The translations under genes were made by a program, and so were the position numbers. From a virus: DNA of 42,232 nucleotides. Positions 5,848 through 39,855 of the stretch are shown one piece after another. Under the pieces are notes generated by a model. The model did no database searches. It had not been told where the DNA came from and worked only from the letters and a program-made list of their open reading frames with translations. Numbering within the stretch: position 1 is the first letter of the stretch; the number at the start of each line of letters is the position of its first letter. Location of the stretch: the IMG/VR virus record IMGVR_UViG_3300024054_000028, positions 1 through 42,232 of that record; one strand, given 5' to 3'.

Positions 5848-6479
5848 GCACAACCCCCACATTCATCTACCTGATCGAAGCGGCCAACGGCCTCGTGAAG
5901 ATCGGCGTCGCTCAGAAGGTGCGTGACCGCTTCCAGGCGACGCGCCTTCACAGCCCTGTTCTGACGCGCCTGATCGCATGCTGGCCCGGCTCTCAGGTTG
6001 ACGAGCACGCTCTGCATGAGCGGTTCCGTTCCTACCGCGAGCATGGCGAGTGGTTCGTGCTGCGCGGTGAGTTCGCTGCGTTCGTTGAGCGGTCGCGCGG
6101 CGTTGGGGTCGATCACATCCCGACTTGGGGCGATCTGAAGTTCAACAACCGACCGGCTTACGTGCTCAGGCGCAACCTTGAGCGCACGAAGGCTCGGCCG
6201 AAATATGCTGGCGCCGTCGCGTGTGAGACGAAAGTCGGCATCACTCCGCAACAGCGGCGCGTGCTTGATTACATCAGCGGCTACCTTGCCGAGCACGGCT
6301 GCGCCCCGAGCTACCAAGAGATCGGCGACAGCATCGGCGTGCTCAGCAAGTCGGGCGTCCACCGTCTCGTCCATGGCCTCGTCAGTCGTGGTCATCTGAG
6401 CCTTTCGCCGGGCCGTGGGCGCACCATCACTCTGTCAGAACAGCCCGCTGCGTCTGTGGCGAACGGAGTTGCGGCATGA
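5844..6479 (+). CDS. fusion of a GIY-YIG/T5orf172-like domain with a LexA-type winged helix
   Basis: Residues 8-85 look like a T5orf172/MUG113 (GIY-YIG-like) domain: FIYLIEAANGLVKIGVA, then the Arg-rich QATRLHSPVLTRLI, an HALHERF helix and GEWF. After a linker, residues about 133-197 match the LexA N-terminal DNA-binding domain: ITPQQRRVLDYISGYLAEHG, CAPSYQEIGDSIGV, SKSGVHRLVHGLVSRGHL and a GRGRTITL wing. No S24 peptidase domain follows. The combination suggests a DNA-binding protein, perhaps a nuclease directed to SOS-box-like sites or a regulator of phage or host genes. It overlaps neighbours by 4 bases on each side. Domain assignments are by eye. Confidence 0.7.
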   Translation: MSTTPTFIYLIEAANGLVKIGVAQKVRDRFQATRLHSPVLTRLIACWPGSQVDEHALHERFRSYREHGEWFVLRGEFAAFVERSRGVGVDHIPTWGDLKFNNRPAYVLRRNLERTKARPKYAGAVACETKVGITPQQRRVLDYISGYLAEHGCAPSYQEIGDSIGVLSKSGVHRLVHGLVSRGHLSLSPGRGRTITLSEQPAASVANGVAA

Positions 6480-24405: not shown

Positions 24406-25287
24406 ATGACCCCTCACGACCTCATCACGCTCGCGCTGAAGCAAGCCAATGTGGTCGGCGTCGGCCAGACCGCGCTCGCTGAAGACGTGAACGACGCCCT
24501 GACGCATCTCAACATGATGCTCGGGCAGTGGAACCGGAAGCGCTGGCTGATCTACCATCTCGTTGAGGCGACGGTGCCGGCTTACGGCGCTGCGTCCTAC
24601 CGCATCGGCCCTGGCATGGACATTGACGTGAAGGGCCGCGTCACGGGCATCGCGAGCGCGTTCTATCGCTTGGCGCGCGTGCGCGAGACGAACGACGATT
24701 TCTCGCTCGACTTCAGCCCAGATTTCGGCCCGCCGCACACCATCGGCGCGGGCGCGATCGACATTCCCCTCGCCGTGCTGACGAGCCGTGAGGATTACAG
24801 CCGGATCGGCATGAAGGGCTTAGGCACGTACCCGTCCGCGGTGTGGCTCGATGCCGATTACCCGGTGGGCAACCTCTACGTCTGGCCGTCGCCCTCTGTC
24901 GGCGAGATACACATCGTTGTGCAGGAGCAGCTAGGCCGGTTCACGGATCTGACGGCCAATATCGAGCTTCCCGACGAGTACCACGACGCGCTGTTCCAGA
25001 ACCTCGTGGTGCGTCTGCGCTCCGCCTACGGCCGCCCCCGCGACCCCGTCGTGGAAGTGCTGGCCAAGACCGCGCTCAACACCATCCGCAGCGCCAACGC
25101 GCAGATCGGCACGCTCGGGATGCCCCGCAACATGCCGCTCGGCCGCTTCGGTGGCGACATGAACAGCTATTGGGCAGGCGGCGGCGTGATGCCGGCACGA
25201 GAGATCGTGGACCGGACTGTCAACGTGCCCGTGCTCACGCCGGTTGATGAGCCGGACACCATCAAACCCGTTCCGGGGACTTTCTGA
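24406..25287 (+). CDS. P22 gp4-like head completion / tail adaptor protein
   Basis: This 293-residue protein has the order expected for P22 gp4 family proteins: an N-terminal helical part (DLITLALKQANVVGVGQTAL, DALTHLNMMLGQWNRKRWL), then strand-rich segments, and PDEYHDALFQNLVVRLRSAYG followed by TALNTIRSANAQIGTL. gp4 binds the portal after packaging and closes the head; in P22 it also has muralytic activity, which I cannot judge here. Confidence 0.8.
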   Translation: MTPHDLITLALKQANVVGVGQTALAEDVNDALTHLNMMLGQWNRKRWLIYHLVEATVPAYGAASYRIGPGMDIDVKGRVTGIASAFYRLARVRETNDDFSLDFSPDFGPPHTIGAGAIDIPLAVLTSREDYSRIGMKGLGTYPSAVWLDADYPVGNLYVWPSPSVGEIHIVVQEQLGRFTDLTANIELPDEYHDALFQNLVVRLRSAYGRPRDPVVEVLAKTALNTIRSANAQIGTLGMPRNMPLGRFGGDMNSYWAGGGVMPAREIVDRTVNVPVLTPVDEPDTIKPVPGTF

Positions 25288-25289
25288 TC

Positions 25290-25808
25290 ATGGGGTTTCT
25301 GGTCGATGGCGAGGCGCGCGTCGCCTTCACGAACGAGCCGGGCGCCGTGCCGCAACCTCCCGACAACGGCGAGGTAAAGGTTCAGCAGGCCGACGCGCTC
25401 CTGATTACGCGCAAGGCGGACGGCACGCCCCGGTTCACCGATCTGCGCCCCATGGAAGAGCAGTTAGAAGTTGGCCCCCTCGCCAATGCGCTCGCCAACG
25501 CCGTTCCTGCGACACACACATCGGTTTCGGACGCAAATTATCAGTGCCTCTCTAGCGATGCACAGGTCGGCATGATCACGCTGACGGCTCCGCGGGTGAT
25601 CTCGCTGCCGGACGTGGACACGTTTCCCTTCCGCGATCTCGTCATCGCCGACGAGAGCGGCGCCTGCTCAGACACGCTGACGATTACGATCCAGCCCGGC
25701 GCAGGCACAGGCGATACGATCGCGGGCGCGACATCCATCGTCCTTTCCAGCCCATATCAAGGTCTGCGCTTTCGCCGCGGTGCCGCCAATCTTTGGATAC
25801 GCCTGTGA
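25290..25808 (+). CDS. hypothetical virion-region protein
   Basis: This 172-residue protein starts MGFLVDGEARVAFTNEPG and has beta-rich repeats of the kind LTAPRVISLPDVDTFPFRDL and SIVLSSPYQGLRFRRGAANLWIRL, typical of phage fibre or baseplate folds. Its stop overlaps the next ATG (TGATG). Its place next to a beta-helix tail spike suggests a tail part. Confidence 0.6.
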   Translation: MGFLVDGEARVAFTNEPGAVPQPPDNGEVKVQQADALLITRKADGTPRFTDLRPMEEQLEVGPLANALANAVPATHTSVSDANYQCLSSDAQVGMITLTAPRVISLPDVDTFPFRDLVIADESGACSDTLTITIQPGAGTGDTIAGATSIVLSSPYQGLRFRRGAANLWIRL

Positions 25809-27598
25809 TGAAGCGCCCCCTCCTTATCATCGCCGCGCTCCTCGGTCTGTCCGCGCCCGTGCTCGCACAGACCCGCGCGCTTCCGCCCGGCGAGATCCGC
25901 GCCAACGGCGACATCACCTTCGGCAACGCCCTGAAGCTCGGCAAGCGCGAGGGCAACCGGACAGTCATCACCCCCGACACGCTTCAGATCCTCGGATCGG
26001 GCTCGACCGGCGATGCATCCGATCTGAGTGCTCGCCTGCGCGGGTCCACTAAGGCTCTCGCGCTCGGTCAGGACACCAGCATCGGTCATTCGGTGGCGCG
26101 GTTCGGTACGCCGGGTGTCGAGACCTGTGCCGGCAACGATGCGGTGGACGATAGCGTAGCGATCAACGCCGCGATCACCTACGTAGCGATCCTCGGCGGC
26201 GGCAAGGTCACGTTTCCGCAGAGCGCGGACTGCCGCGTCGCCAATCCGGTCTATCTCAAAGATAAGGTGCAACTCTGGGGCCACGGCGGCGTCGGCCCAG
26301 ATGGCGGCGGGCAGACGAGCAAGATCAGCCCGTCCGTCAGTATGGATGCGGTGGTCACGCAACCGGCTTCGCCTGTGCTCTTGGGTGCCGCTGGGATATT
26401 CAACTTGACGCTTGACGGGCGCCGTCCAGGGTCTCCCAATGCGCCCTCTGGCCGCACCATCAATGTTGGTCGGCTACTCGATGTAACGCCAATCGGCATT
26501 CGCATTGAGCATAGTGGGTTCTTCTACTCATCTGGTGATGGCGTCTATCTGCGCAACATCCCGGAGTCATTCGCCTGGATCAACTGGATTACAAACAGCC
26601 AGTTTTCTCAAAATCTCGGTTGGGCGCTCCGTATGGAGAGCACCGACAGCATTGTAGCGATGAACTACATCGGCGTGAACGGCGTGAAGGGGGTGGCAGG
26701 CGGCGGCAAGACTGCCACTGAAAACGGATCGGGTGGCTGCATCTTCACGCAGAACTACGGTAATATCCGCTTCTTCGGCAATCAGATCGAAGTATGCAAC
26801 ACGGGTGTTCTTGAAAAGAGCGTCGATAGTGGTATCGCTTCGGCCTACGGGAACAATTGGACAGGCAACTTTTTCGACCTAAACAACACGGCATTTGAGT
26901 TTCGCCGCGGCCTCCTCGATGCAGGACAGACCATCCGATACAACGGCATTTTCACCGGCAATCGGTTCGGCGGCTCTGAAGACAACGACATCCTGATCGA
27001 TGACCGGCTGGCTGACGTCGCTATCGAGAACTCGCTTTTCGGGCCGATGGGTGCGGGAAAGTACAACGTTCGGTTCAAGGGCGCCAACGCCTCGGGCTGG
27101 TCTTTTTCGGGCCGCTTTCTCTCGCCGACCGCACAGCGTTTCCAGAACGCGCCGCAGGATACCGTAGTCCGCGTTTCCGGCTACGAGGCACAGAACAAGC
27201 TCGACCGCCTTACTGTTGGACCCGACGTGAACGGGGCGGGCGTGTTCGGCATCAACGCGGGGCCGGGCAATGTTCCGACGCTGGAATGGCAGGTACAGGG
27301 TGAGACCAAGTACCGCCAGCGCATCAATCCGGCGGATGGCTCCCTCCTCCTCTCGAACGTACAGTTCAATGCGGAGGCGTTCAGAGTGATCTTCGACGGC
27401 ACCACGCAGTTTATTAAGCCGGCGATGCCTCCCTATGTCCCATCCGGAGCGCTTCCGCAGTGCGACACTGGCCATATCGGGGCTCAGATCACAGTCGCAG
27501 ATAATTCTGGCATTCCGGCTCGGGGCGGCCCGCCGTCTTCTGGTGGCGCGACGGCATGGCCATTCTTCTGCAACGGGGCGAGTTGGTCCGCCCTCTAG
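25808..27598 (+). CDS. tail spike-like beta-helix protein with signal peptide
   Basis: This 596-residue protein starts with a textbook export signal: MKRPLL, a hydrophobic core and APVLAQ at about residue 21. After a short domain comes DDSVAINAAITYVAILGGGKVTFPQ, which is a pectate-lyase-like beta-helix entry, followed by repeated strand-turn units up to about residue 450. The C terminus has two cysteines (QCDTGHIG ... FFCNGASW). Such proteins bind or cut host surface sugars. A signal peptide on a tail spike is unexpected because virion proteins assemble in the cytoplasm. Confidence 0.75.
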   Translation: MKRPLLIIAALLGLSAPVLAQTRALPPGEIRANGDITFGNALKLGKREGNRTVITPDTLQILGSGSTGDASDLSARLRGSTKALALGQDTSIGHSVARFGTPGVETCAGNDAVDDSVAINAAITYVAILGGGKVTFPQSADCRVANPVYLKDKVQLWGHGGVGPDGGGQTSKISPSVSMDAVVTQPASPVLLGAAGIFNLTLDGRRPGSPNAPSGRTINVGRLLDVTPIGIRIEHSGFFYSSGDGVYLRNIPESFAWINWITNSQFSQNLGWALRMESTDSIVAMNYIGVNGVKGVAGGGKTATENGSGGCIFTQNYGNIRFFGNQIEVCNTGVLEKSVDSGIASAYGNNWTGNFFDLNNTAFEFRRGLLDAGQTIRYNGIFTGNRFGGSEDNDILIDDRLADVAIENSLFGPMGAGKYNVRFKGANASGWSFSGRFLSPTAQRFQNAPQDTVVRVSGYEAQNKLDRLTVGPDVNGAGVFGINAGPGNVPTLEWQVQGETKYRQRINPADGSLLLSNVQFNAEAFRVIFDGTTQFIKPAMPPYVPSGALPQCDTGHIGAQITVADNSGIPARGGPPSSGGATAWPFFCNGASWSAL

Positions 27599-27658
27599 GT
27601 AGCCGGCCCGCTCGCCGCGCCACCCGGCCCGAGCGCGACACCCGTCTCGGAGAAGCTC

Positions 27659-29137
27659 TTGCCCCGCATAGCCCTCACAGGCGGCGCCTATCAGTCGCGC
27701 AGCGTGATCGCGTCGGCCCAACGTTCGCTGAACTTGGTGCCGGAGACGAACCCCGCAAATGGCGACCAGCAGGTGCCGGTCACGCACTATCCGCGCCCTG
27801 GCCTGCGCAAGGTGGCAACGCCGCCGATCGCGGGGCAGGCGCGCGGGCTCTATGCGGCCTCGAACGGCGATCTCTACGAAGTGGTGGCCGGCCGGGTCTA
27901 CTACGTGAACCGGGATTGGGCTTACACAGAGGTGGGGCGCCTACCCGATGGTGTCGGGGCCATCTCGTTCGCTGACAACGGCGACGTGATCGCGTTCTGC
28001 GACGGCGTGCGCGGCTACGCCATCGACATGAAGACCCGCCAGTTCGGGCAAATTGCGGACGCGGCCTTCCTCGGCTCAGCCTCCGTGGTCGGCTTGGACA
28101 CGTACTTCATCTTCCACGAGCCCGGCACGGCGAAGTTCTACATCAGCCTATCGCAGCCGTCGTTCGACAATCTCGTCAACGGCGTGGTTGAGCAGACATC
28201 GACCTATGCCGCCTTCGATCCGCTCGACACGTCCCGCAAGGCCGGCGCTGGTGACAGGATCGTGGCCCTGGCCGCGGTTCACCGCGAACTCTGGCTGATC
28301 GGCGACCGCACATCTGAGGTTTGGAGCAACACGGGTGCGGCTGACTTCACGTTCGGCTCGGTGCCCGGCGCCTTCATCGACCATGGGTGCGCGGCGCCGG
28401 CCTCCGTGGCGACGCAGGACATCTCGGTGTTCATGCTGTCCCGAGACGCGCAGGGGCAGGGCATCGTTGTCCAGGGCGCCGGCTATTCCGTCACTCGGAT
28501 CTCCACGCACGCCATCGAGGCCGAGTTCCAGTCCTACAAGCGCATTGATGACGCGCAGGGCTACACCTTCCAGCAGCAGGGCCACGTCTACTACGTCCTG
28601 ACGTTCCCGACCGCAAACCGCACGTGGGCCTACGATCTCAACACGAAGCAGTGGGGAGAATGGTCTTGGACGGACGATAACGGGGGGCAGAACCGGCACC
28701 GTGCTCGGACAGCGGCCTTCGCCTACGGTATGAACCTCTGCGGCGACTGGCAGAACGGCACGCTCTACGCCTTTGACGGCAACGTGTTCACGGACGACGG
28801 CAAGCCGATCCTGTGCCTGCGCACATTCCCGCACCTCGTTCAGGACGGCAATCGCGTCTTCTATCAGCGGTTCATCGCCGACATGCAGGTTGGCACGCTG
28901 GAAGGCACGACGACCGACGATCCTCCGATGGTCTCGCTGCGCATGTCGGACACCCGTGGCGCGTCCTACGGCAACCCGGTCGTGCAATCACTCGGCGCGG
29001 CTGGCCAGTACGATGCCACGCCCACGTGGAACCGGCTCGGCATGGCGCGTGATCGAGTGTTCGAGATCTCGTGGTCCGTCCCGATGCGGACAGCGCTGAA
29101 CGGTGCGTTCGTGGATCTTCAGGTGGGGCAGAGCTGA
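27659..29137 (+). CDS. P22 gp10-like packaged DNA stabilisation protein (tail hub)
   Basis: This 492-residue protein starts at a TTG with GGAG 6 bases upstream. It has the gp10 pattern: GGAYQSRSVIASAQRSLNLVPE, THYPRPGLRKVATP, then beta-propeller-like repeats (TSEVWSNTGAADFTFGSVPG, ANRTWAYDLNTKQWGEWSWT) and a beta-sandwich end. gp10 binds gp4 and carries the needle and spikes in P22. Confidence 0.85.
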   Translation: MPRIALTGGAYQSRSVIASAQRSLNLVPETNPANGDQQVPVTHYPRPGLRKVATPPIAGQARGLYAASNGDLYEVVAGRVYYVNRDWAYTEVGRLPDGVGAISFADNGDVIAFCDGVRGYAIDMKTRQFGQIADAAFLGSASVVGLDTYFIFHEPGTAKFYISLSQPSFDNLVNGVVEQTSTYAAFDPLDTSRKAGAGDRIVALAAVHRELWLIGDRTSEVWSNTGAADFTFGSVPGAFIDHGCAAPASVATQDISVFMLSRDAQGQGIVVQGAGYSVTRISTHAIEAEFQSYKRIDDAQGYTFQQQGHVYYVLTFPTANRTWAYDLNTKQWGEWSWTDDNGGQNRHRARTAAFAYGMNLCGDWQNGTLYAFDGNVFTDDGKPILCLRTFPHLVQDGNRVFYQRFIADMQVGTLEGTTTDDPPMVSLRMSDTRGASYGNPVVQSLGAAGQYDATPTWNRLGMARDRVFEISWSVPMRTALNGAFVDLQVGQS

Positions 29138-29463
29138 TGGCGCAGCCTCCGAACAGCAATGTGCCGATCGCCGAGCCGCAGTCAGGTCGCTGCACCATCG
29201 CTTGGCAGGCGTTCTTCGCCGCGTTGTCGGGGCAGGGGGCGGCAAAGAGCACCATCATAGCCCCGGACGGCAGCCCCTACACATACACGGCGCCTTCGGG
29301 CGGGCACTTGGTGGTTCAGGGCGAGATCACGGGCCTGGCCCTGATCCGCGGACGCGATCCCATCGCCCTAGCGCCATCCCTGTCGATGATCCCGCTATCC
29401 AAAGGGGATCGGGCGGTTCTGACCTACACGGCCGCCCCTGGCTTGGTGTTTCTGCCGGCATGA
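29137..29463 (+). CDS. small hypothetical tail-region protein
   Basis: This 108-residue protein starts MAQPPNSNVPIAEPQSGRCT and carries beta-rich segments (GGHLVVQGEITGLALIRGRD). It sits where P22 has the needle gene 26, but it is too short for a needle and has no coiled coil. Both ends overlap neighbours (TGATG, ATGA). Confidence 0.55.
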   Translation: MAQPPNSNVPIAEPQSGRCTIAWQAFFAALSGQGAAKSTIIAPDGSPYTYTAPSGGHLVVQGEITGLALIRGRDPIALAPSLSMIPLSKGDRAVLTYTAAPGLVFLPA

Positions 29464-29912
29464 TCCGCTTCGACGTGGAGCCGCTGGCGTCGGTGGCGGA
29501 CGAGATCGCACCGCTATGGGAGCGCCACTACGAGGAAGGCGCCGAGGACCGCGAGATAGCGCCGTTCGCTCCGGACTGGCGGCGCTACTTCATGTTGGAG
29601 GAGGGCGGCAACCTGCTCCTCCTCACGGCTCGGACGGATGACGGGACGATGGTCGGCTATCTCATGGCGATCATCGACACCCATCTGCACTTCTCCCGCA
29701 CCGTTTTCGCTGGCGTCGATGTCTACTGGCTTGCCCCGGAGCACCGCGGCGGCAGGACCGCGCTTCGGATGCTCAAGACCGCGGAAGCCTGCTTCAAAGC
29801 CATGGGCGCACACGTCGTCCTTCAGCACGCATGGCACGTCCGAGGGCAGGAACGACTTCTTGCCCGCATGGGATACGCGCCGATGGAAACCGTCATGAAG
29901 AAGGTGCTCTGA
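29460..29912 (+). CDS. GNAT-family acetyltransferase
   Basis: This 150-residue protein has a GNAT fold: strand pairs at LLLLTARTDDGTMVGYLMAI, VFAGVDVYWLAPEHRGGRTA with the acetyl-CoA loop around residues 96-105 (RGGRTALRML), and VVLQHAWH. Such enzymes occur just before the ejection-protein genes of many podoviruses; the substrate is unknown. Starts with ATG overlapping the previous stop. Confidence 0.75.
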   Translation: MIRFDVEPLASVADEIAPLWERHYEEGAEDREIAPFAPDWRRYFMLEEGGNLLLLTARTDDGTMVGYLMAIIDTHLHFSRTVFAGVDVYWLAPEHRGGRTALRMLKTAEACFKAMGAHVVLQHAWHVRGQERLLARMGYAPMETVMKKVL

Positions 29913-29913
29913 G

Positions 29914-30636
29914 ATGGGAGCAGCAGCAGCCATTGGGCTGGGATCTGCCGCGAGCGCAGGCGCGTCGCTGTTCGGCGCCAACTCAGCCGCCAATGCGTCC
30001 AAGAAGGCCGCACAGATCGCGGCTGCGACGCAGATGCAGATGTACAACCAGACCCGCACGGATCTGGAGCCGTTCCGTCAGGTTGGCGAGTACGCGGGCG
30101 GCCAGCTTACCAACCGCCTCACCGAATTGACCTCGCCCATCGTCATGGATCAGGCCGCGCTTGAGGCCACGCCCGGCTATCGGTTCACGCTCAATCAGGG
30201 GCTCAAGGCGGGGCAGAACTCGGCTGCGGCCCGCGGGCTCGGCCTGTCAGGGGCTGCGATCAAGGCGGCGACGAACTACGCCGCGGGCCTCGCCGATCAA
30301 ACGTACATGAACCAGTTCAACGTCGCGAATACGAACCAGTCGAACGCCTTCAACCGGCTACTTCAGGCGACGCAGCTCGGGCAAGGTGCCGCGGCTCAGA
30401 CGGCTGCGGCCGGCACGACGACTGGCCAGGGCATCGCCAACAACATGATCCAGTCGGGCAACGCACAGGCGGGCGCTGCCATGGCCGGCGCCAACGCGAT
30501 CGGCGGCGCGGCGAACAACCTCGCCAGCCTCTATGCCTACTCGCCGCTCATCAACAAGCTGACCGGCTCGGCCGGCGGCGGGGGCAACTACTTTAGCAAC
30601 GCCCTATTTGGCGGCGGCGGATGGGGGGGCGGCTGA
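29914..30636 (+). CDS. ejection (DNA-transfer) protein, P22 gp7-like position
   Basis: This 240-residue protein has an Ala/Gly-rich start (GLGSAASAGASLFGANSAAN), then TRTDLEPFRQVGEYAGGQL, TPGYRFTLNQGLKAGQNSAAARGLGLSGAAI, helices rich in Ala, Asn and Gln, and a Gly-rich end. This is a common podovirus internal virion protein that helps DNA cross the cell envelope. The order gp7, gp20, gp16 matches P22. Confidence 0.78.
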   Translation: MGAAAAIGLGSAASAGASLFGANSAANASKKAAQIAAATQMQMYNQTRTDLEPFRQVGEYAGGQLTNRLTELTSPIVMDQAALEATPGYRFTLNQGLKAGQNSAAARGLGLSGAAIKAATNYAAGLADQTYMNQFNVANTNQSNAFNRLLQATQLGQGAAAQTAAAGTTTGQGIANNMIQSGNAQAGAAMAGANAIGGAANNLASLYAYSPLINKLTGSAGGGGNYFSNALFGGGGWGGG

Positions 30637-31931
30637 TGGCTGCGGGCTTCGACACGTCCATTTATAAGGTGCCCGAGCAGCCTGACCCGCTGAACCGGCT
30701 CACGGGGCTCCTTCAGATGCAGGGCGCCCTTCAGAGCCAGGAAATCCAGCGCGAGACGCTGAACCGACTTCGCTCGGAGCAGGCGGTAGGGCAAGCCTAC
30801 CAGCAGGCTGTCGGCCCTGACGGGCAAGTGGACATCAACAAGCTGGGTGGCATCATCGCGAAAGACCCGCGCGCGGCCTATGGCGCGTCGGCGGGGCTTC
30901 GGGATGCGATCACGGCTCGGGGCAATCAGATCGGTAATCAGCAGGCCGGCACCAGCCTCGGCATCACGCAGCAGGGACAGATTGCCAATGGCCTCGCCGG
31001 CCTCGTGACGAAGCCCAACTTAAGCCTCAACGACACCAATCAGTTCGTGGACCAACAGGTTGCGGCTGGCGTGATCCCGAAGGAGCGAGGCGACCAGATC
31101 AAGGGCGAGATGGCGGGTCTCAACGGACGCCAGTTGCGCCAGTACACCCTAAACCACTTCAACACCGTGTCCGGGATTAAAGCCGCTGATGCAGCGACTG
31201 TCGGAACGACGCCTGAGGGAGCCCCGGTCGTTGGTACGCAGGGCCAGCGGCTCGCTAAGACGGTGGAGCAGGGCGGCATTGTGCCTTCACTGGCGCCGGG
31301 GCAAGCCGAAGCGCAGGCGGTTGATCTGGAGGGTGCGGCCAAGCGCGGTCAGGCGCTCAATGAGCAAGCCGATCAGGTGCCGCAGCGCAAGGCAACGCTC
31401 AACAACATGCTCGGGCTGCTCAACGAGTTCAGTTCGGGCAAGGGGGCCAAGACGGAGGCGAACTACCGCTCTGCACTCGGCCGCTTCGGGCTCGACCCTG
31501 GAGCGAGCGTCACGGGCGCAACGGAGGAGTTCGCTAAGCTCGCCAACCAGATTGCGGCGCAGCAGGCGAGCCAACTCGGCACGACGGACCAGCAGCAGCG
31601 TACCGTCATGGGCGCCAATCCCTCGACCGAGTTCTCAAAACTCGGCAACGAGCGCGTCATCGCCGTGCTGAAGGGCAACGAGGACGCCATCGCGGCCAAG
31701 CGGGATGCGTTCCAGCGGTTTAAGGCTGCGAACCCGCAGGGCTCCTACGACCAGTTCTCCGCAGCCTTCAACCGCGACTTCGACCCGCGCGTGTTCCAGT
31801 ACCTGAACATGGGGAAGGCGCAGCGCGAGGATTTCCGCAAGAGCCTGTCTCCGACGCAGCAGGAGGTGTTCTCCCGCGCGGCAAAGACGGCGATTGCCAA
31901 CGGCTGGATCGGTGCCCCGAATGGCCAGTGA
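30636..31931 (+). CDS. ejection protein, P22 gp20-like position
   Basis: This 431-residue helical protein is rich in Gln and Ala (RLTGLLQMQGALQSQEIQRE, QIAAQQASQLGTTDQQQRT). The start ATG overlaps the gp7-like stop (TGATG). Position and composition, not sequence identity, suggest the second ejection protein. Confidence 0.7.
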   Translation: MAAGFDTSIYKVPEQPDPLNRLTGLLQMQGALQSQEIQRETLNRLRSEQAVGQAYQQAVGPDGQVDINKLGGIIAKDPRAAYGASAGLRDAITARGNQIGNQQAGTSLGITQQGQIANGLAGLVTKPNLSLNDTNQFVDQQVAAGVIPKERGDQIKGEMAGLNGRQLRQYTLNHFNTVSGIKAADAATVGTTPEGAPVVGTQGQRLAKTVEQGGIVPSLAPGQAEAQAVDLEGAAKRGQALNEQADQVPQRKATLNNMLGLLNEFSSGKGAKTEANYRSALGRFGLDPGASVTGATEEFAKLANQIAAQQASQLGTTDQQQRTVMGANPSTEFSKLGNERVIAVLKGNEDAIAAKRDAFQRFKAANPQGSYDQFSAAFNRDFDPRVFQYLNMGKAQREDFRKSLSPTQQEVFSRAAKTAIANGWIGAPNGQ

Positions 31932-34410
31932 CGACATGGATCGCGATTTCGCGATCCGGACCATGCTCGGTGAAGCGCGCAACCAGGGTGATGCCGGCCT
32001 CGCAGGCGTGGCGAGCGTCATCCTGAACCGTGCGGCCTCGGGCAAGTACGGCGGCTCGACCGCGACCGACGTCGTGCTCGCGCCTAGCCAATTCGAGCCG
32101 TGGCAGACGCGCCGAAGCGAGCTGCTGGCCATCAAGCGCACAGACCCGATGTATCAGCGGGCCGGGCAGATTTACGACATGGTGTCGTCAGGCGAGATCC
32201 CCGACATCACGGCCGGCGCGACACACTTCCTCAACAAGAAGGTCGTCATGGACCGCTCCGGCAAGCTGCCGAAGTGGGCTCAGGGCGAGGGTCAGGACAT
32301 CGGCGCGCACACCTTCCTCAAGCCGAACGGCGCGGTGAAGCGCGGGGCCTCCGCGCCGACTGCGGGCGACCTGTCGGGCTTCGACGCTTTGGATGCGCTT
32401 GCTGGCGGCGGAGAGAAGCCTGCTGCCCCTGCCGCTCTGGCTGCGACTGGTGGCGTACGGGTCTCTCTGCCGAACGCACCGACCGGCGAGAGCGGCGGCC
32501 TGGACGGGTTCGACGCGCTCGACAAGATCGCGACGGCCGGCGAGACGATCACGACCAAGCCGGAGCCCGGCTCATCGGCCGCGGCGGTCGGCGCTGGCAT
32601 CATCAGCGGCATTCCGGTCGTCGGCCCGACTGTCATGGACAAGGTGCAGCATGGCCTTGCTCATGTCCGCGCCTATTCCAGCGGCAAGCCCTACGATCAG
32701 GAGCTTGAGAACGTTCGGCAGTTCACGCAGGGCACCGCCGCAGAAAGTCCAAACGCCGAGACCTTCGGCAAGGTGCTCGGCGGGGTCGTCGGCCTCGCTC
32801 CTATTGCCTCGACCGGAGCGGGCGCGGCGGCTCTCGGCATGCGCGGCAACATGCTGACGCGCGCTCTGGCTGGCGGCGCGAGCGGCGCGGCTATCGGCGC
32901 AGCGGATGCTGCGGCACGAGGTGAGGATGCCGGCCGAGCAGCCGCAATGGGGTCGTTCATTGGCACTGGCACGCCGATTGTCGGCCGCGCCATTGGCATG
33001 GCTGCGGCGCCGGCCATTAACCGCCTTACCACCGCGGCTCAGAATACCTTCGGCGGCACCTCGCGGGCGAACAACGCGCTCTTGGCCGCGGTAGAAGCTA
33101 GCGGCCAGGACATCAGCGCGCTCCGTGCCGAGCTGGCCCGCAATCCGAATTTGGCGCTCGCTGATCTTAGCCCCGCTCTTCGTGAACAGGTCGTGGGATT
33201 GGCGCAGGGCGGTCCTCAAGCCGCAAAAATTCAGAACTGGGTTGCTGCTCGTCGGGGGGCGCAGGCAGGCCAACTTCGCGACTCCTTTGACGACGCGATC
33301 GGTGCCGCCCCAGACCCCGTTGCGCTCCGCGAGCAACTGGCCGGCGTCGCGAAGACGAACGCCGATGCGGCGTTCCGGCCGATCCTGAAGACCGCCAAGC
33401 CGGTTGATCTTGAGGGGCTGTCAGAGTCCACCCGCGCCCAAATCGCTCAAGCTCGGGAGCGTGTGCTGGCCCCCATGACGGACGATGCGCGAGCGGCACT
33501 ATCTGAGGCTGAGCAACTTCACCTCACTCAACAGCAATTGCGCAAGGAGGCGACTACGCTCGCGAGCAGCTCTACCGGCTCGGATCGTCTGGCGGCTGAT
33601 GGCATCCGGACCGTTCGCCAGCAACTCATCGACAGGATCGATACGGCTACGGGAGGCAAGTTCCGCCCTGCGCAAAAGCAGTTCGCCGACGACACGGCTG
33701 TACGCGAAGCGTTTGACGACGGCATGCAGGCTCTTGACCGTGTCAGGAGCGGTGCAAAAGGGCTTGAAAGCCGGCCAGAAGCGCTCCGCCGTGATTGGGC
33801 GGGAATGAGCGAGGCGCAGCGCGAAGCCTACCGAGAGGGCGTTCGGACGCAATTGGCGGCCACCATGAGTGCCAATCGCAACCCCGCCCGAGCCGGCGAG
33901 GCAATCACCGACGCCGATTTCAGCCGGCAGAAGCTCGCCATCATCTTCGGCGATGACGAGGCTGGCCGGCTCCTCCGAGCGGTGGAAGACAGCCGTCGCA
34001 TCGCGGATACGAACAACCGAGTGTTCAGCGGGTCTGATACGGCACAGCGACAAGCCGCGCGTGAAAGCGTGCGGGTGCGTGGTGATAGTGCCCCCGCGGC
34101 TGGCCTTGAAATGCCGGCGCTCGCCGGGATCGTTGGCGGACCGCAGGCCGCAGGTGTTTCCCTCTTGGCGAAGGGAGGCAACAAGCTGCTCGGCGCGATG
34201 GGAAGGCGCTCAGATTTGGCGCGTAACCGGATGCTAGCCGATGATCTGACGGCGGCCGGGCAGGGCGGTGAGGATGTGCTGAACCGCCTTGAAGCCTTCC
34301 TTGCCTCGCGTAGGGGCAACCCGATGAGGGTGCAAGGCGCCATCGAGCGCAGCGCGCCGCTCAATCTGTTGGTTCGGTCGGCGTCGCCGCAGCTAATCAC
34401 CGTACCGTAA
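31921..34410 (+). CDS. large ejection protein with N-terminal cell-wall hydrolase domain
   Basis: This 829-residue protein has a SleB/Hydrolase_2-like domain in residues 1-130 (RDFAIRTMLGEARNQGDAGL, VASVILNRA, FEPWQTRRSEL, ITAGATHFLNKKV), then a hydrophobic Gly/Ala region around 215-390 and long helices after it. The order matches P22 gp16, the last ejection protein, here joined to a muralytic domain that would open the peptidoglycan during DNA injection. It overlaps the preceding gene by 11 bases. Confidence 0.75.
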   Translation: MASDDMDRDFAIRTMLGEARNQGDAGLAGVASVILNRAASGKYGGSTATDVVLAPSQFEPWQTRRSELLAIKRTDPMYQRAGQIYDMVSSGEIPDITAGATHFLNKKVVMDRSGKLPKWAQGEGQDIGAHTFLKPNGAVKRGASAPTAGDLSGFDALDALAGGGEKPAAPAALAATGGVRVSLPNAPTGESGGLDGFDALDKIATAGETITTKPEPGSSAAAVGAGIISGIPVVGPTVMDKVQHGLAHVRAYSSGKPYDQELENVRQFTQGTAAESPNAETFGKVLGGVVGLAPIASTGAGAAALGMRGNMLTRALAGGASGAAIGAADAAARGEDAGRAAAMGSFIGTGTPIVGRAIGMAAAPAINRLTTAAQNTFGGTSRANNALLAAVEASGQDISALRAELARNPNLALADLSPALREQVVGLAQGGPQAAKIQNWVAARRGAQAGQLRDSFDDAIGAAPDPVALREQLAGVAKTNADAAFRPILKTAKPVDLEGLSESTRAQIAQARERVLAPMTDDARAALSEAEQLHLTQQQLRKEATTLASSSTGSDRLAADGIRTVRQQLIDRIDTATGGKFRPAQKQFADDTAVREAFDDGMQALDRVRSGAKGLESRPEALRRDWAGMSEAQREAYREGVRTQLAATMSANRNPARAGEAITDADFSRQKLAIIFGDDEAGRLLRAVEDSRRIADTNNRVFSGSDTAQRQAARESVRVRGDSAPAAGLEMPALAGIVGGPQAAGVSLLAKGGNKLLGAMGRRSDLARNRMLADDLTAAGQGGEDVLNRLEAFLASRRGNPMRVQGAIERSAPLNLLVRSASPQLITVP

Positions 34411-34563
34411 GGTTATGTAGGCGGCGCTGATGATTGCCATGACAGCGCCGCCGACACCAAATCCGATGCCGAAGTCGCGGCTGTAGCCATAAACCATGTG
34501 GTGCGCGAACCAGACGAACGCACCGAAGCCGGCAAGGCAGAGCAGGACGTAGAGAACGCGCAT
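34393..34563 (-). CDS. 56-residue membrane protein in a minus-strand cassette
   Basis: ATG at 34561-34563 overlaps the stop of the upstream small gene (TAATG). Two transmembrane helices: VLYVLLCLAGFGAFVWFAHH and GFGVGGAVMAIISAAYITL. Its 3' end overlaps the end of the ejection-protein gene by 18 bases, tail to tail. See the second cassette gene at 34563-34730. Confidence 0.65.
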   Translation of the reverse strand: MRVLYVLLCLAGFGAFVWFAHHMVYGYSRDFGIGFGVGGAVMAIISAAYITLRYGD

Positions 34564-34730
34564 TATAGCTTGGAAAAAATTGCGTTGATTAAATACAGCG
34601 CAGTCATAAGCGTCGAGTGCATGACCCATAATACAACGCCGGCGATGACTATAGCGTAAGCTGTCCGCCAAATGTCGGGGTCGGTGATCCCGCCCCATGT
34701 CGCGACCGTCTGAACGAAACCCGCGATCAC
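34563..34730 (-). CDS. 55-residue membrane protein in a minus-strand cassette
   Basis: From a GTG at 34728-34730 this frame encodes a protein with one or two membrane helices (WRTAYAIVIAGVVLWVMHST, LMTALYLINAIF). The coding DNA is less GC-rich than its surroundings (runs such as TTGATTAAATACAGCG on the complement), a sign of separate origin. In P22 the same place, between gene 16 and the tail spike, holds the membrane exclusion gene sieA in the immI region. Confidence 0.5.
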   Translation of the reverse strand: MIAGFVQTVATWGGITDPDIWRTAYAIVIAGVVLWVMHSTLMTALYLINAIFSKL

Positions 34731-34742
34731 CTTGAGGCCCCC

Positions 34743-36092
34743 ATGAACCGCATCTTCGCGGCGCTCCTCGCGCTCGTGTGCTTCTGCACGCCCTCATATA
34801 GTGCGACATTGCTGCCTCCTGGCAAGGTGACGTTCACCGACGCCAACGGCAAGCCGCTCTCCGGTGGAACCGTCGCCTTCTACCTGCCGAACACCACCAC
34901 GCCGAAACAGACGTGGCAGGATGCCGGGCAGACGGTGCTCAACACCAACCCGGTGAGGCTCGATAGCGCTGGCCGAGCCACTGTGTACGGCTCGGGAGCA
35001 TATCGCCAAATCGTCAAGGACGCCGCTGGCAACCTGATCTGGGATCAACTGACGGCCGACACGTCGTCCTCGCAAATCGCGTGGGGCGGCACGAGCACCG
35101 GGACGGCCAATTCGCAGTCGGTCTCGGCGACGAACTTTACCTCTGCCGATGGGCAGATTGTGGGGTTCATCGCCGGCTTTACGAACACCGGCCCGATGAC
35201 GGTTGTCGCGAATGGGTCCGCTCCGATCCCGGTACTGGTGGACGGGCAATCAGGCTCCGTCAGCCTCTCGGGTCAAGAGATCCGCCAAGGCGCCGCAATT
35301 CTCTTGATCTACGATGCGAGCCGTGGCGCTTTTCACCTTGCAACGGGAGCCGGCGGCTCATTCGGCTTCGGCGCACGCCAAAATTTGCCCGCCGCCAACG
35401 TCACGGATTTGGGGCTCATTCCGACCCACAACGTGCTGATTACCGGCAGCGCGACGATCACCTCCTTCGGCTCGTCCGCAGACCAGAACATCCCCCTGTA
35501 CGCCCTGACTTTCGGCGGGCCCTCAACCCTTGTTGGAAGCAACAGCCTGATCGTTCCGAGCGGTCGCTTGAGCGTCAATCAGGGCGACACAGCGTTCGCG
35601 ATGTACATTGGCTCGGGCTTCTGGGTTTTGCTGGCCTATCAGCCCGTCATCGACACCCGCAGCCCGCCGGGGATGATCATGGCCTATGGTGCGCAGAGTT
35701 GCCCTGCGGGCTGGCTCAACGCCGATGGGTCCGCACTCTCGCGCAGCACCTACCCCGCCCTCTTTGCCGCTATTGGCGGGGGATGGGGCGGCGGCGATGG
35801 CTCCACAACCTTTAACGTACCCGATCTACGCGGCTACTTCCTTCGGGGGCAGGATGGGGGCGCCGGCCGAGATCCGGGCAGAGACTTCGCCTCGGCGCAG
35901 GGCGATAGCGTCGGGCCGCACCAGCACGCCGTCCCGATGGCGACCGCAACGGCCGGATCGGGAACCACAAACGTGTTCGCCTATCCCCTAACCGGTGGGA
36001 CGCCATCCATCACAACGGTGGGTCAAGATCCCGTGTCCCTAGGCGAAACACGCCCGAAGAACGTCGCCGTTTGGTACTGCATCAAGTCATGA
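34743..36092 (+). CDS. tail fibre with collar domain and signal peptide
   Basis: This 449-residue protein starts with an export signal (MNRIFAALLALVCFCTPSYS, then A) and continues with a beta-rich particle-binding-like domain (TDANGKPLSGGTVAFYLPN ... RLDSAGRATVYGSGAYRQ), like the N terminus of phage fibres. Residues about 315-380 form a Tail Collar domain: PPGMIMAYGAQSCPAGWLNA, STYPALFAAIGGGWG, FNVPDLRGYFLRG. It ends NVAVWYCIKS. The second tail protein here with an apparent signal. Confidence 0.8.
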   Translation: MNRIFAALLALVCFCTPSYSATLLPPGKVTFTDANGKPLSGGTVAFYLPNTTTPKQTWQDAGQTVLNTNPVRLDSAGRATVYGSGAYRQIVKDAAGNLIWDQLTADTSSSQIAWGGTSTGTANSQSVSATNFTSADGQIVGFIAGFTNTGPMTVVANGSAPIPVLVDGQSGSVSLSGQEIRQGAAILLIYDASRGAFHLATGAGGSFGFGARQNLPAANVTDLGLIPTHNVLITGSATITSFGSSADQNIPLYALTFGGPSTLVGSNSLIVPSGRLSVNQGDTAFAMYIGSGFWVLLAYQPVIDTRSPPGMIMAYGAQSCPAGWLNADGSALSRSTYPALFAAIGGGWGGGDGSTTFNVPDLRGYFLRGQDGGAGRDPGRDFASAQGDSVGPHQHAVPMATATAGSGTTNVFAYPLTGGTPSITTVGQDPVSLGETRPKNVAVWYCIKS

Positions 36093-37675
36093 GGATGAAC
36101 ATGGTTTTCGCCCGCCGCGGAGTCCTTGCGGCCTCCTTTGCGCTCGGCTTGTCCGGCTCTGCTCTGGCGCAGTCCAAGGACGACGTTGCCGAAAGAATTA
36201 ATTCAACGCTTCCCGACAACGGGCGCGGGCAAATCACGGCTGCTGGCCTGCGGGGGCTTCTGACCTCGTTTAACGGGGCGAGAGGCGTTCCGAACGGTAT
36301 CGCTGAGTTGGGGCCGGATGGGCGCATCGTGCCGTCGCAGGGGCAGAGCACCTTCGCTCAGATGAAGCTGGGGCCGTCACTCTCGCCGCTCGATATGACG
36401 TTTGCCGGCACTCAGAACCCCAACGCCATCATGCTGGGCGTCGGCAATCAAGTTTCCTTCTGTCCGGCTCTGTCGTGCATCAAGGGCTCTTCCGACGTAG
36501 CGGACGTGCCGTCGTTTTACGATCATCAGCGCGCGTCGCTGCTTGTCTCCGCCCAGACGCAGGATGACGCCCACAGCGAAGAGCAGACCCTAGCCGTCAC
36601 GACGACGATCAATAAAGGGTTCATGAAGGAATACGCCGCGAACACGGCGTATTCGTTGGGCGACAACGTGAAGGTCGGCTCGGTCGTTTACCGCGTGGTT
36701 CAAGCCGGGACTACGGGCGCGAACTCGCAGCCTCAAGGCACCCGCCCCAATGCGGCCCAGAGCGGCCAGTACCAAGCGCAGGACGGCTCGGTCCGCTTCC
36801 TCTGGATCAACGACATCCCCATTGCGGGGAAGGTCGGCAGCTACTTTGAGACGAAGGTAGACGAGGGTGCCGGCGGCGCTTGGGGTGCGGCCTTCAACTA
36901 TCACCTGAACGCGGCGCCGAAGCCCGGCAACTTTTTCCAGGGTGTCGAGATCGATTATACCAATTCGGGTGGCAACTGCCCGATTGGCATTGACTGCACG
37001 GGCGTTCGGCTCGCCCTCGGCGGCAAGCAGATCACCCACGGCTTCTACCTCGAAGGCAGCACAACCGAGAACCCGACCTCAATCTGGGGCTTCCGGACAG
37101 CCGGCAGCAACCTTGCTCAGTTCGCGGCCATCGCAGAGGACAGCGGCTCGCCTGTCGGCCTCGGGTTCAACATTGGCGATTACGGCAGTCGAGCGAAAAA
37201 CACTCCGAGCGTGCATCATGAAGTTGCGGCTATTCAGGACAACTCCATCAGCCCGTTCGGGCTTTGGATCACAGGAAACAAGACCAACGCTGAAATCAAC
37301 CTCAATGGTGCCAGCCCGAAGGGGCTGACGATTTCGAACACGAAATCGTCCTCGGCTATCGAAGACACCAGCACCGCAAACGTTGGTATTCTCGTTGGTG
37401 GAACTAAGTCCCTCTCGGGCTTTCGTGACAGCAGCACGGCCCCGGTCGGAATGGCCCTCGCCGGCACCTACAGCACGGCGCAGATTGCGGGGAACGGCTT
37501 TTCCATCTCTCCTGATGGTTCCCTCGTGGTGCCGCGGATCAGGGAGACGGCACCACGAACCATTGCCTCTGCGACAACCGCTTGCACGCAAGGTGAGCGG
37601 GCCTATGACGCAAATTACGAATACCGCTGCGTCGATACAAACACTTGGAAGCGCGCCGCCCTCTCAAGCTGGTAG
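36089..37675 (+). CDS. second tail fibre-like protein with signal peptide
   Basis: This 528-residue protein starts ATGA-overlapping the previous gene. The N terminus FARRGVLAASFALGLSGSAL with AQ after it looks like a Sec or Tat signal (ARRGVL). Then comes INSTLPDNGRGQITAAGLRGLLTSF, a short domain often seen in tail fibres, a long beta-rich middle and a C-terminal CTQGERAYDANYEYRCVDTN pair of cysteines followed by Trp, reminiscent of the tail-spike end. It is probably a receptor-binding or virion surface protein. Confidence 0.65.
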   Translation: MRMNMVFARRGVLAASFALGLSGSALAQSKDDVAERINSTLPDNGRGQITAAGLRGLLTSFNGARGVPNGIAELGPDGRIVPSQGQSTFAQMKLGPSLSPLDMTFAGTQNPNAIMLGVGNQVSFCPALSCIKGSSDVADVPSFYDHQRASLLVSAQTQDDAHSEEQTLAVTTTINKGFMKEYAANTAYSLGDNVKVGSVVYRVVQAGTTGANSQPQGTRPNAAQSGQYQAQDGSVRFLWINDIPIAGKVGSYFETKVDEGAGGAWGAAFNYHLNAAPKPGNFFQGVEIDYTNSGGNCPIGIDCTGVRLALGGKQITHGFYLEGSTTENPTSIWGFRTAGSNLAQFAAIAEDSGSPVGLGFNIGDYGSRAKNTPSVHHEVAAIQDNSISPFGLWITGNKTNAEINLNGASPKGLTISNTKSSSAIEDTSTANVGILVGGTKSLSGFRDSSTAPVGMALAGTYSTAQIAGNGFSISPDGSLVVPRIRETAPRTIASATTACTQGERAYDANYEYRCVDTNTWKRAALSSW

Positions 37676-38626
37676 GGGCGCGCTCCATTCGCACTGCTTC
37701 GTCAGGGCAGCGGCGAACACCGCATTGAGGCGCAGCCGTTCCGCTTCAACGGGCGGGCCGTGGACGGCTACCGGGCGGCAGCGGCCCTTCATCTCTCGCT
37801 CGATGAGATCTGGGCTGACCAGCGCGCCGGTCGCCCCGTCGAACCAGGGGCGGGTGCCGAGATCGATGTAGCTTTCCGCGGGCAGGCCTTCGGCGAGCAG
37901 GATGTCGTGGGCGTCGAGTTCGACGTGCCAGTAGGTGACGCTCGCCACCTCGATGCGGGCGATGGAGGTGCCGTTGATCAGGCACATCACCGGCACGAGC
38001 ACGCCGCCTTCGTTCTTGGCATCGGCTCCTACCAAGACGGGGTGCCCTGAGGAGAGGAGAAGGCCGCGGGCAGGAAGCCCGCCGCCGAAAGCGCCTGCAC
38101 GGACGCGCACCGGCCGCTGATCGTATCCCGGTTCGTTGAGATGGCGACTGCCGATCCAAACGATGGGGCGGCAGCTACCCGAGGCCGTCACGGCGATGTC
38201 GCCTATGCGCAGGCCCTCAACGGCAACCTCGCCGCGCACGGTGCGGATCATCGTTCCGGTTGCGAAACAGACGCCGATGATGGTCAGATCGGTAAAATCA
38301 GCCGCCTCGGTTCGGTTGCCGAAAGTGCTGGACCTGAGAGTGGACACGCCATCGTTGCGACTGATGTTGTAGTTGGCTCCGCCCGCTTCAAATCCGATGC
38401 CCGCCCCACTGGCGACGTAGGAATAGACATTCCGCAATTGCGTCGCGAACAGAAGCCTGTTGTCGGCGCCGCCGAAGTTGGACAGGCCCGTGATGGGCTG
38501 GCCATTCACCGTTCCCGTGACGCCCGTGACGAACTGCTCGTTCAGCGTGCTTGTGGTGTCATCAGTCGTGAACGCTCCGGCAGCCGTAACAGTCGGCGTC
38601 GAGATCGTGAACGTGTGCTGAGCCAT
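37664..38626 (-). CDS. Hint-domain protein (Hint_2 type)
   Basis: This 320-residue minus-strand protein begins MAQHTFTISTPTVTAAGAFT with a beta-rich N half, then the Hint core: CFATGTMIRTVRGEVAVEGL with Cys120, LRIGDIAVTASGSCRPIVWIG, SSGHPVLV with His195 and HDILLAEGLPAESYID. Hint domains self-cleave or rearrange in hedgehog and intein proteins; Hint_2 proteins are common in alphaproteobacteria with unknown role. Longer starts exist at 38695 and 38779. Its minus orientation inside a plus-strand late operon marks it as an added gene, perhaps expressed in the lysogen. Confidence 0.75.
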   Translation of the reverse strand: MAQHTFTISTPTVTAAGAFTTDDTTSTLNEQFVTGVTGTVNGQPITGLSNFGGADNRLLFATQLRNVYSYVASGAGIGFEAGGANYNISRNDGVSTLRSSTFGNRTEAADFTDLTIIGVCFATGTMIRTVRGEVAVEGLRIGDIAVTASGSCRPIVWIGSRHLNEPGYDQRPVRVRAGAFGGGLPARGLLLSSGHPVLVGADAKNEGGVLVPVMCLINGTSIARIEVASVTYWHVELDAHDILLAEGLPAESYIDLGTRPWFDGATGALVSPDLIEREMKGRCRPVAVHGPPVEAERLRLNAVFAAALTKQCEWSAPLPA

Positions 38627-39654: not shown

Positions 39655-39855
39655 ATGACCCGTTTGCTTCTCGCGGCGCTGGCGCTCGCCTGTGCCTGCT
39701 TCCCCGCTCTCGCCGCAGAGGCCGCAGAGCCCGTCACTTGGGGCGCGCTGGGCGCCATCTTCGGCTGGATCGGCCTCGGCCTGATTGCGCTCGTGGTGGG
39801 CGGCATCGCTCTCGCCGTGATCGGCGGCATCATTCTTAAGGCATGGAGTCACTGA
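39655..39855 (+). CDS. small protein with signal peptide and membrane segment
   Basis: This 66-residue protein starts MTRLLLAALALACACFPALA with an AEAAEP cleavage-site-like region, followed by a Gly/Ile-rich transmembrane helix (GWIGLGLIALVVGGIALAVI). It may be a holin accessory or spanin-like factor, without a family match. Confidence 0.55.
   Translation: MTRLLLAALALACACFPALAAEAAEPVTWGALGAIFGWIGLGLIALVVGGIALAVIGGIILKAWSH

Follow-up and report, generated by a model that had tools for sequence, protein, structure and literature searches.

Predicted Sec-type signal peptides on the spike and fibre proteins of a P22-like phage, and a possible route by which these proteins join the virion

We analysed a stretch of 42,232 bases, the IMG/VR virus record IMGVR_UViG_3300024054_000028 (hereafter the window), in which 58 genes were called, 27 of them encoding at least 150 amino acids (aa). 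The analysis centres on three spike or fibre genes starting at positions 25808, 34743 and 36089, by which their products are named below, and on the signal peptides (SPs) predicted at their N-termini. PHROG matches identified the terminase, a P22-type portal, the scaffold, the major head protein, an Ad3 adaptor and the Hc3 head-closure protein; judged by these matches, the phage is therefore P22-like and short-tailed, and it resembles P22 in portal, coat, adaptor, Hc3 and gene order. The three spike and fibre genes sit in the late structural operon with these P22-like head and tail genes, as seen from the PHROG matches and from synteny in loci L027, L028 and L029, which belong to the about 100 relatives compared (loci labelled L006, L027 and so on). 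Relatives in IMG records 2918999278, 2928273650 and 2615840644 appear to be prophages of isolates. Tailed-phage virions are held to be fully assembled in the cytoplasm. The main features, with cysteine (Cys) counts for the predicted mature chains, are listed here.

24406–25287, plus strand: head-tail adaptor (Ad3-like), core tail gene without SP (PHROG 637).
25290–25808, plus strand: SP-less anchor/socket protein (172 aa), with a phage-type-specific N-terminal part and a common C-terminal socket domain (25515–25805), assigned from recurrence of the socket in relatives and lack of an SP.
25808–27598, plus strand: tail spike protein (596 aa), 6 Cys (weak PHROG tail match, E 5e-4).
25808–25867, plus strand: predicted SP of the spike, MKRPLLIIAALLGLSAPVLA (SP score 8.2).
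25868–26032, plus strand: putative mature N-terminal docking domain of the spike, QTRALPPGEIRANGDITFGN..., near-invariant right after the predicted cleavage across otherwise unrelated spikes.
27659–29137, plus strand: head closure protein Hc3 (P22 gp10-like), core tail gene without SP (PHROG 578, E 7e-100).
34743–36092, plus strand: collar-domain tail fibre (449 aa), collar domain at about 35670–35840, 2 Cys (Pfam PF07484, E 2.7e-22; PHROG tail collar fibre families).
34743–34802, plus strand: predicted SP of the collar-domain fibre, MNRIFAALLALVCFCTPSYS (SP score 5.4; kept in the syntenic L027, L028 and L029).
34803–35063, plus strand: head-binding module, ATLLPPGK...TADT (87 aa), by profile match to solved tailspike head-binding domains.
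36089–37675, plus strand: third tail fibre/spike protein (528 aa), 6 Cys (weak PHROG matches).
36089–36169, plus strand: predicted SP of the third fibre, start at 36089 or 36101, ...ARRGVLAASFALGLSGSALA (SP score 6.55–7.25).

SPs were called with a home-made, rule-based Sec score (charge, hydrophobic core, residues at −3 and −1) applied to all 58 N-termini; tried on 12 textbook E. coli SPs, the score accepts 11 and misses PhoA. Five genes pass, namely 25808, 34743 and 36089 together with two short open reading frames (ORFs) at 6476 (48 aa, doubtful) and 39655 (66 aa), and of the 27 genes that encode 150 aa or more, only the three spike and fibre genes have an SP. Each combines a positive n-region, a hydrophobic h-region and small residues at −3 and −1, the N-termini reading MKR-PLLIIAALLGLSAPVLA/Q in 25808, MNR-IFAALLALVCFCTPSYS/A in 34743 and MRMNMVFARR-GVLAASFALGLSGSALA/Q in 36089 (a slash marks the predicted cleavage). 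The preliminary description had reported three proteins beginning with positive residues, a hydrophobic core and a cleavage site; the scores bear this out and all three ORFs exist. Its cleavage sites stand for 25808 and 36089, and that of the second protein has to be corrected from YSA to S-Y-S/A, relatives having ASA/A and VGA/A. Within the core structural region of L027, L028 and L029, SPs are likewise confined to the fibre genes. If the N-termini were functionless hydrophobic stretches arisen by chance, 0.6% of them would be expected to pass, the rate seen with shuffled N-termini (0 of 6680 internal windows pass). Yet all three fibre genes of the window pass, and relatives with a widely diverged docking domain still have the SP; we give this explanation hardly any credence. 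The three SPs are well supported, at the level of sequence, as genuine Sec-type export signals. Two other types of signal were rejected: a lipoprotein signal, as no Cys stands at +1 (the +1 residues being Q, A and Q), and Tat export of 36089 (ARRGVL), whose relatives lack the twin arginine. No internal start yielding a second, SP-less product is evident at the SP end of the three proteins.

The clearest link between an SP and a virion-type domain is found in 34743, where a head-binding module begins exactly after the SP and matches, by profile, PDB entries 7eeq (E 1.9e-10) and the tail spike 9vyg/9vyh (E 3e-7). Since module position 12 aligns with residue 13 of the 7eeq chain, Met1 of that chain falls on the cleavage site of 34743. 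The fibre is thus homologous to these solved tailspikes in its head-binding domain, and differs from them in having an SP ahead of that domain; the bodies of the window proteins further differ in being even in Cys number and apparently disulfide-bonded.

A survey of this module, for which 80 of 501 confirmed module loci were taken in, gave about 90 distinct module loci, with an SP present in 26 rows (the window included) and absent from 65. In SP-bearing genes the predicted cleavage usually lies 0–2 residues ahead of the module, and in SP-less genes Met, MT or MS usually stands 1–2 residues ahead of it, often with an in-frame stop just upstream, which makes a hidden SP impossible there. Both kinds of fibre occupy the same location, 3' of the ejection-protein genes. 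Among isolates, Rhodoferax phage P26218 and spring-water podoviruses have the SP-less form, and the five matches obtained in a scan of one genome collection were all SP-less loci. Collar-domain proteins of one class, taken as a control, were mostly unusable, their N-termini not being assignable. Separately, L127 (6739–7932) and L059 (7584–9890) encode further SP-bearing proteins, with 8 Cys, downstream of the fibre gene; the L059 fibre itself is SP-less.

The spike 25808 is encoded immediately behind the anchor/socket gene, its ATG overlapping the socket stop codon and sharing its A. Its relatives are mosaic, a constant N-terminal domain being carried on variable bodies. An SP was found in all relatives of this family, variable in sequence and with Ala-X-Ala-type sites kept; mean identity is 60% over SP residues 4–20 and 51% in the hydrophobic core, versus 87% over mature residues 21–50. 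In the diverged members L190, L193 and L194 the docking domain is much altered and the SP is still clear.

These figures bear on the suggestion that the signals are kept uncleaved as head-binding parts or, more broadly, that uncleaved hydrophobic N-termini serve in tail binding or membrane tethering. Every spike of the 25808 family does keep a hydrophobic N-terminus; the SP is nevertheless more variable than the adjoining docking domain, which argues against a structural role, since conservation in a structural part ought not to fall below that of the domain served by it. The SPs, moreover, end where the binding domain begins, SP-less homologues of the 34743 module keep that domain and start with Met at this very point, Ala-X-Ala-type sites are kept, and the Cys found in some SPs would break an even parity (see below). 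The suggestion is hence contradicted, and we regard an uncleaved anchor as very unlikely.

The socket domain spans about 97 residues and is 65–88% identical to that of the window in relatives, the remainder of the protein being unrelated. It is carried by unrelated anchors in sipho-, myo- and podo-like phages, namely those of lambda-J-type phages (L011, L187 and L192), those of baseplate-type phages (L009 and L194) and that of the P22-like window. An SP-bearing spike is encoded by the following gene at 11 of the 13 socket loci, with a start that normally lies inside or at the socket stop codon; the other two are L186, where the spike gene is truncated, and the distant L195, which has no spike. 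L148 has a single SP-less chain with an odd number of Cys, 7, in which a long body is fused directly to a relative of the N-terminal part of the window's anchor. On the simplest reading, the socket would be the virion side and the mature N-terminus of the spike the plug. Whether socket and exported spike form a transferable cassette of short-tailed, contractile and lambda-like phages, with the partners made on opposite sides of the inner membrane and the receptor-binding assembly step taken only at lysis, seems to us evenly balanced. Searches of 50,697 named phage genomes gave no relative of the spike 25808, of its N-terminal domain or of the socket domain; the socket domain has none in the plasmids searched, and spike N-domain and socket gave no match in 385 genomes of the class that supplied the collar-domain controls. 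As an observation apart, L006 (9757–10095) and L007 (9733–10071) encode a small SP-bearing protein, RlpA-like by eye (EIASWYGPGF...), directly 3' of the exported spike.

The third protein, 36089, has, like 25808, only weak tail-protein matches. Its C-terminus, of a type common to phage structural proteins, has a weak PHROG tail-protein match (E 1.7e-4), and in a weak match to phrog_3614 position 2 of the family aligns with residue 27, i.e. with the SP end. Sec-type SPs of this type occur in relatives L027, L028, L029, L014–L016 and L188, and the relatives are again mosaic, with the body carried behind different N-termini. A virion-binding N-terminus in 25808 and 36089 is suggested by conserved N-terminal domains, a head-binding match in the PDB being found only for 34743.

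Real signals would also suit products that are not virion parts, i.e. proteins built from fibre modules that act at the surface or in the periplasm of the lysogen or infected cell, in receptor masking, in superinfection exclusion or as decoys; surface proteins of the lysogen had been mentioned in the preliminary description. SP-bearing fibre-like proteins are known on cells, in the form of the mosaic adhesive trimer (MAT) fibres of Bdellovibrio, which share a beta-rich domain of about 130 aa after the SP and many of which end in an S74 domain (PMC10769870). By description, the window proteins are like them in having an SP followed by a conserved domain; unlike these surface proteins of a cellular predator, they lie in a phage late operon and, unlike many MAT fibres, 25808, 34743 and 36089 have no Pfam match to S74. 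Lom of phage lambda is likewise an SP-bearing product encoded next to tail genes, in the tail-gene region (PMC12309495), but it is a beta-barrel outer-membrane protein, whereas those of the window are fibre or spike proteins with docking domains. Against a purely cellular role, 34743 retains its head-binding domain, sister phages have SP-less fibres at the same locus, in three tail types the partner of the 25808 spike is a socket of virion type, and the window showed no further clear candidate for receptor binding. The identification of the three as tail spike or fibre proteins is upheld by the head-binding homology and collar domain of 34743, the late-operon position and the pairing of socket and spike; head-binding homology, late structural position and pairing also disfavour a cell-surface function, which we consider unlikely though far from negligible.

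The Cys content of the mature chains provides an independent line of evidence. An even-cysteine bias has been described for exported proteins of E. coli and B. pseudomallei (PMC7678975). Mature 25808, 34743 and 36089 have 6, 2 and 6 Cys, all even, with Cys near the C-terminus in all three rather than as a pair in only two, as had been noted. Among mature chains containing Cys, the number is even in 37 of 40 SP-bearing fibres versus 25 of 54 SP-less homologues (Fisher p 2e-6), samples that are small and partly related; with one member per 50%-identity cluster the contrast is 19 of 22 versus 16 of 35 (p 0.002). Other SP-less genes in the same loci divide into 40 even and 31 odd. Within the 34743-module family, overall Cys content is equal in SP-bearing and SP-less homologues (p 0.76); only the parity differs. 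In several relatives one Cys lies inside the SP and the count becomes even only after SP removal (L028 for the 34743 type, L190 for the 25808 type, and L027, L014, L015 and L016 for the 36089 type), which argues for both export and cleavage. This strong bias, a mark of oxidative folding outside the cytoplasm, supports the disulfides that the preliminary description had suggested there.

An inefficient or timed SP could reconcile these data in another way, one pool of each protein staying in the cytoplasm for virions and another being exported for a second task. Such a dual fate would satisfy virion-type domains and SPs alike, and the SYS/A site of 34743 is weaker than consensus; yet the predicted mature N-terminus coincides with the start of SP-less virion forms, and the even-Cys bias suggests that the oxidised form is the functional one. 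We consider a dual fate rather improbable.

We favour an explanation in which a P22-like phage uses 25808, 34743 and 36089, all bearing functional SPs, as its receptor-binding spike and fibres. Expressed late, the spikes would leave through Sec and lose the SP to signal peptidase, cleavage creating the mature N-terminus that is the virion-docking end, and would fold into oligomers, every Cys paired, under the oxidising conditions of the periplasm. Capsids and short tails, the SP-less socket/anchor included, would meanwhile assemble in the cytoplasm, the inner membrane keeping SP-less socket and SP-bearing spike apart until release. Lysis would then mix both pools, and the ready-made spikes would dock on finished particles. 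From the SPs, the precision with which they precede the docking domain, SP gain and loss in homologues, socket-spike pairing and Cys parity, we infer these steps with unequal confidence: export and cleavage are highly probable, presence in virions is probable, and docking at lysis is only somewhat favoured; the scheme as a whole, with exported, cleaved and oxidised spikes joining finished virions at lysis, we hold to be moderately probable.

Spikes are generally the last part added to the virion, as in P22. The P22 tailspike forms a very stable trimer and can refold in vitro on its own (PMC9576892). On both counts, late and independent addition of a spike is therefore plausible. Use of the host Sec machinery by late phage proteins is itself familiar from signal-arrest-release (SAR) endolysins and other Sec-exported lysis proteins (e.g. 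JG068, PMC3765740), although SAR endolysins are lysis enzymes whose SP stays uncleaved, unlike the receptor-binding proteins of the window.

Several points weigh against this scheme. SPs were scored with a home-made tool whose rule is strict, for which reason six labels had to be assigned by eye. The module tree, on which 8 SP gains or losses were inferred (7–8 in bootstrap trees), has few columns, and the number of switches is uncertain because well-supported branches force just one. Three SP-bearing members have odd Cys counts, and when sequences are clustered at 35% identity the parity contrast loses significance (p 0.12) because few SP-less clusters are left. AlphaFold models are poor, with a predicted local distance difference test score (pLDDT) of 33 for the 25808 spike and 39 for the socket, and fold and interface are thus only putative. 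Docking after lysis would dilute the spikes, and no precedent for it was found in the open-licence literature searched. The same literature yielded no report of SPs on tail fibres of tailed phages.

If the scheme is true, host DsbA and Sec would be assembly factors of a phage, oxidative folding machinery could build a virion part and hence widen the range of proteins usable as spikes, intracellular particles would lack spikes, and the infecting phage's own spikes would be kept off its assembly line until release. In practice, one would then neither trim nor dismiss an SP on a phage fibre gene, nor count it against a virion role, and recombinant SP-bearing fibres may require oxidising expression.

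Some neighbouring genes deserve mention. The gene ahead of the 34743 fibre, at the ejection-protein position (31921–34410), encodes an N-terminal Cell Wall Hydrolase domain (PF07486, E 2e-14) and its product is presumably a virion lysin for entry. In the gap 5' of 34743, where a scan for promoters and terminators found none, the minus strand carries a 56-aa membrane ORF (34393–34563); short hydrophobic minus-strand ORFs occur at the same position in L027, L028 and L029 and at a similar position in L006. Between the third fibre and the lysozyme, and opposing the direction of the late operon, a minus-strand gene (37664–38626) encodes a protein with a Hint_2 (intein-like autoprocessing) domain (PF13403, E 7e-40), with a relative in L014 (11859–13082). 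The 66-aa protein at 39655–39855, just past the lysozyme region, has a strong SP (MTRLLLAALALACACFPALA) and no PHROG match. In L028, three consecutive small SP-bearing proteins of unassigned function (126–1631) are encoded upstream of the terminase/portal region.

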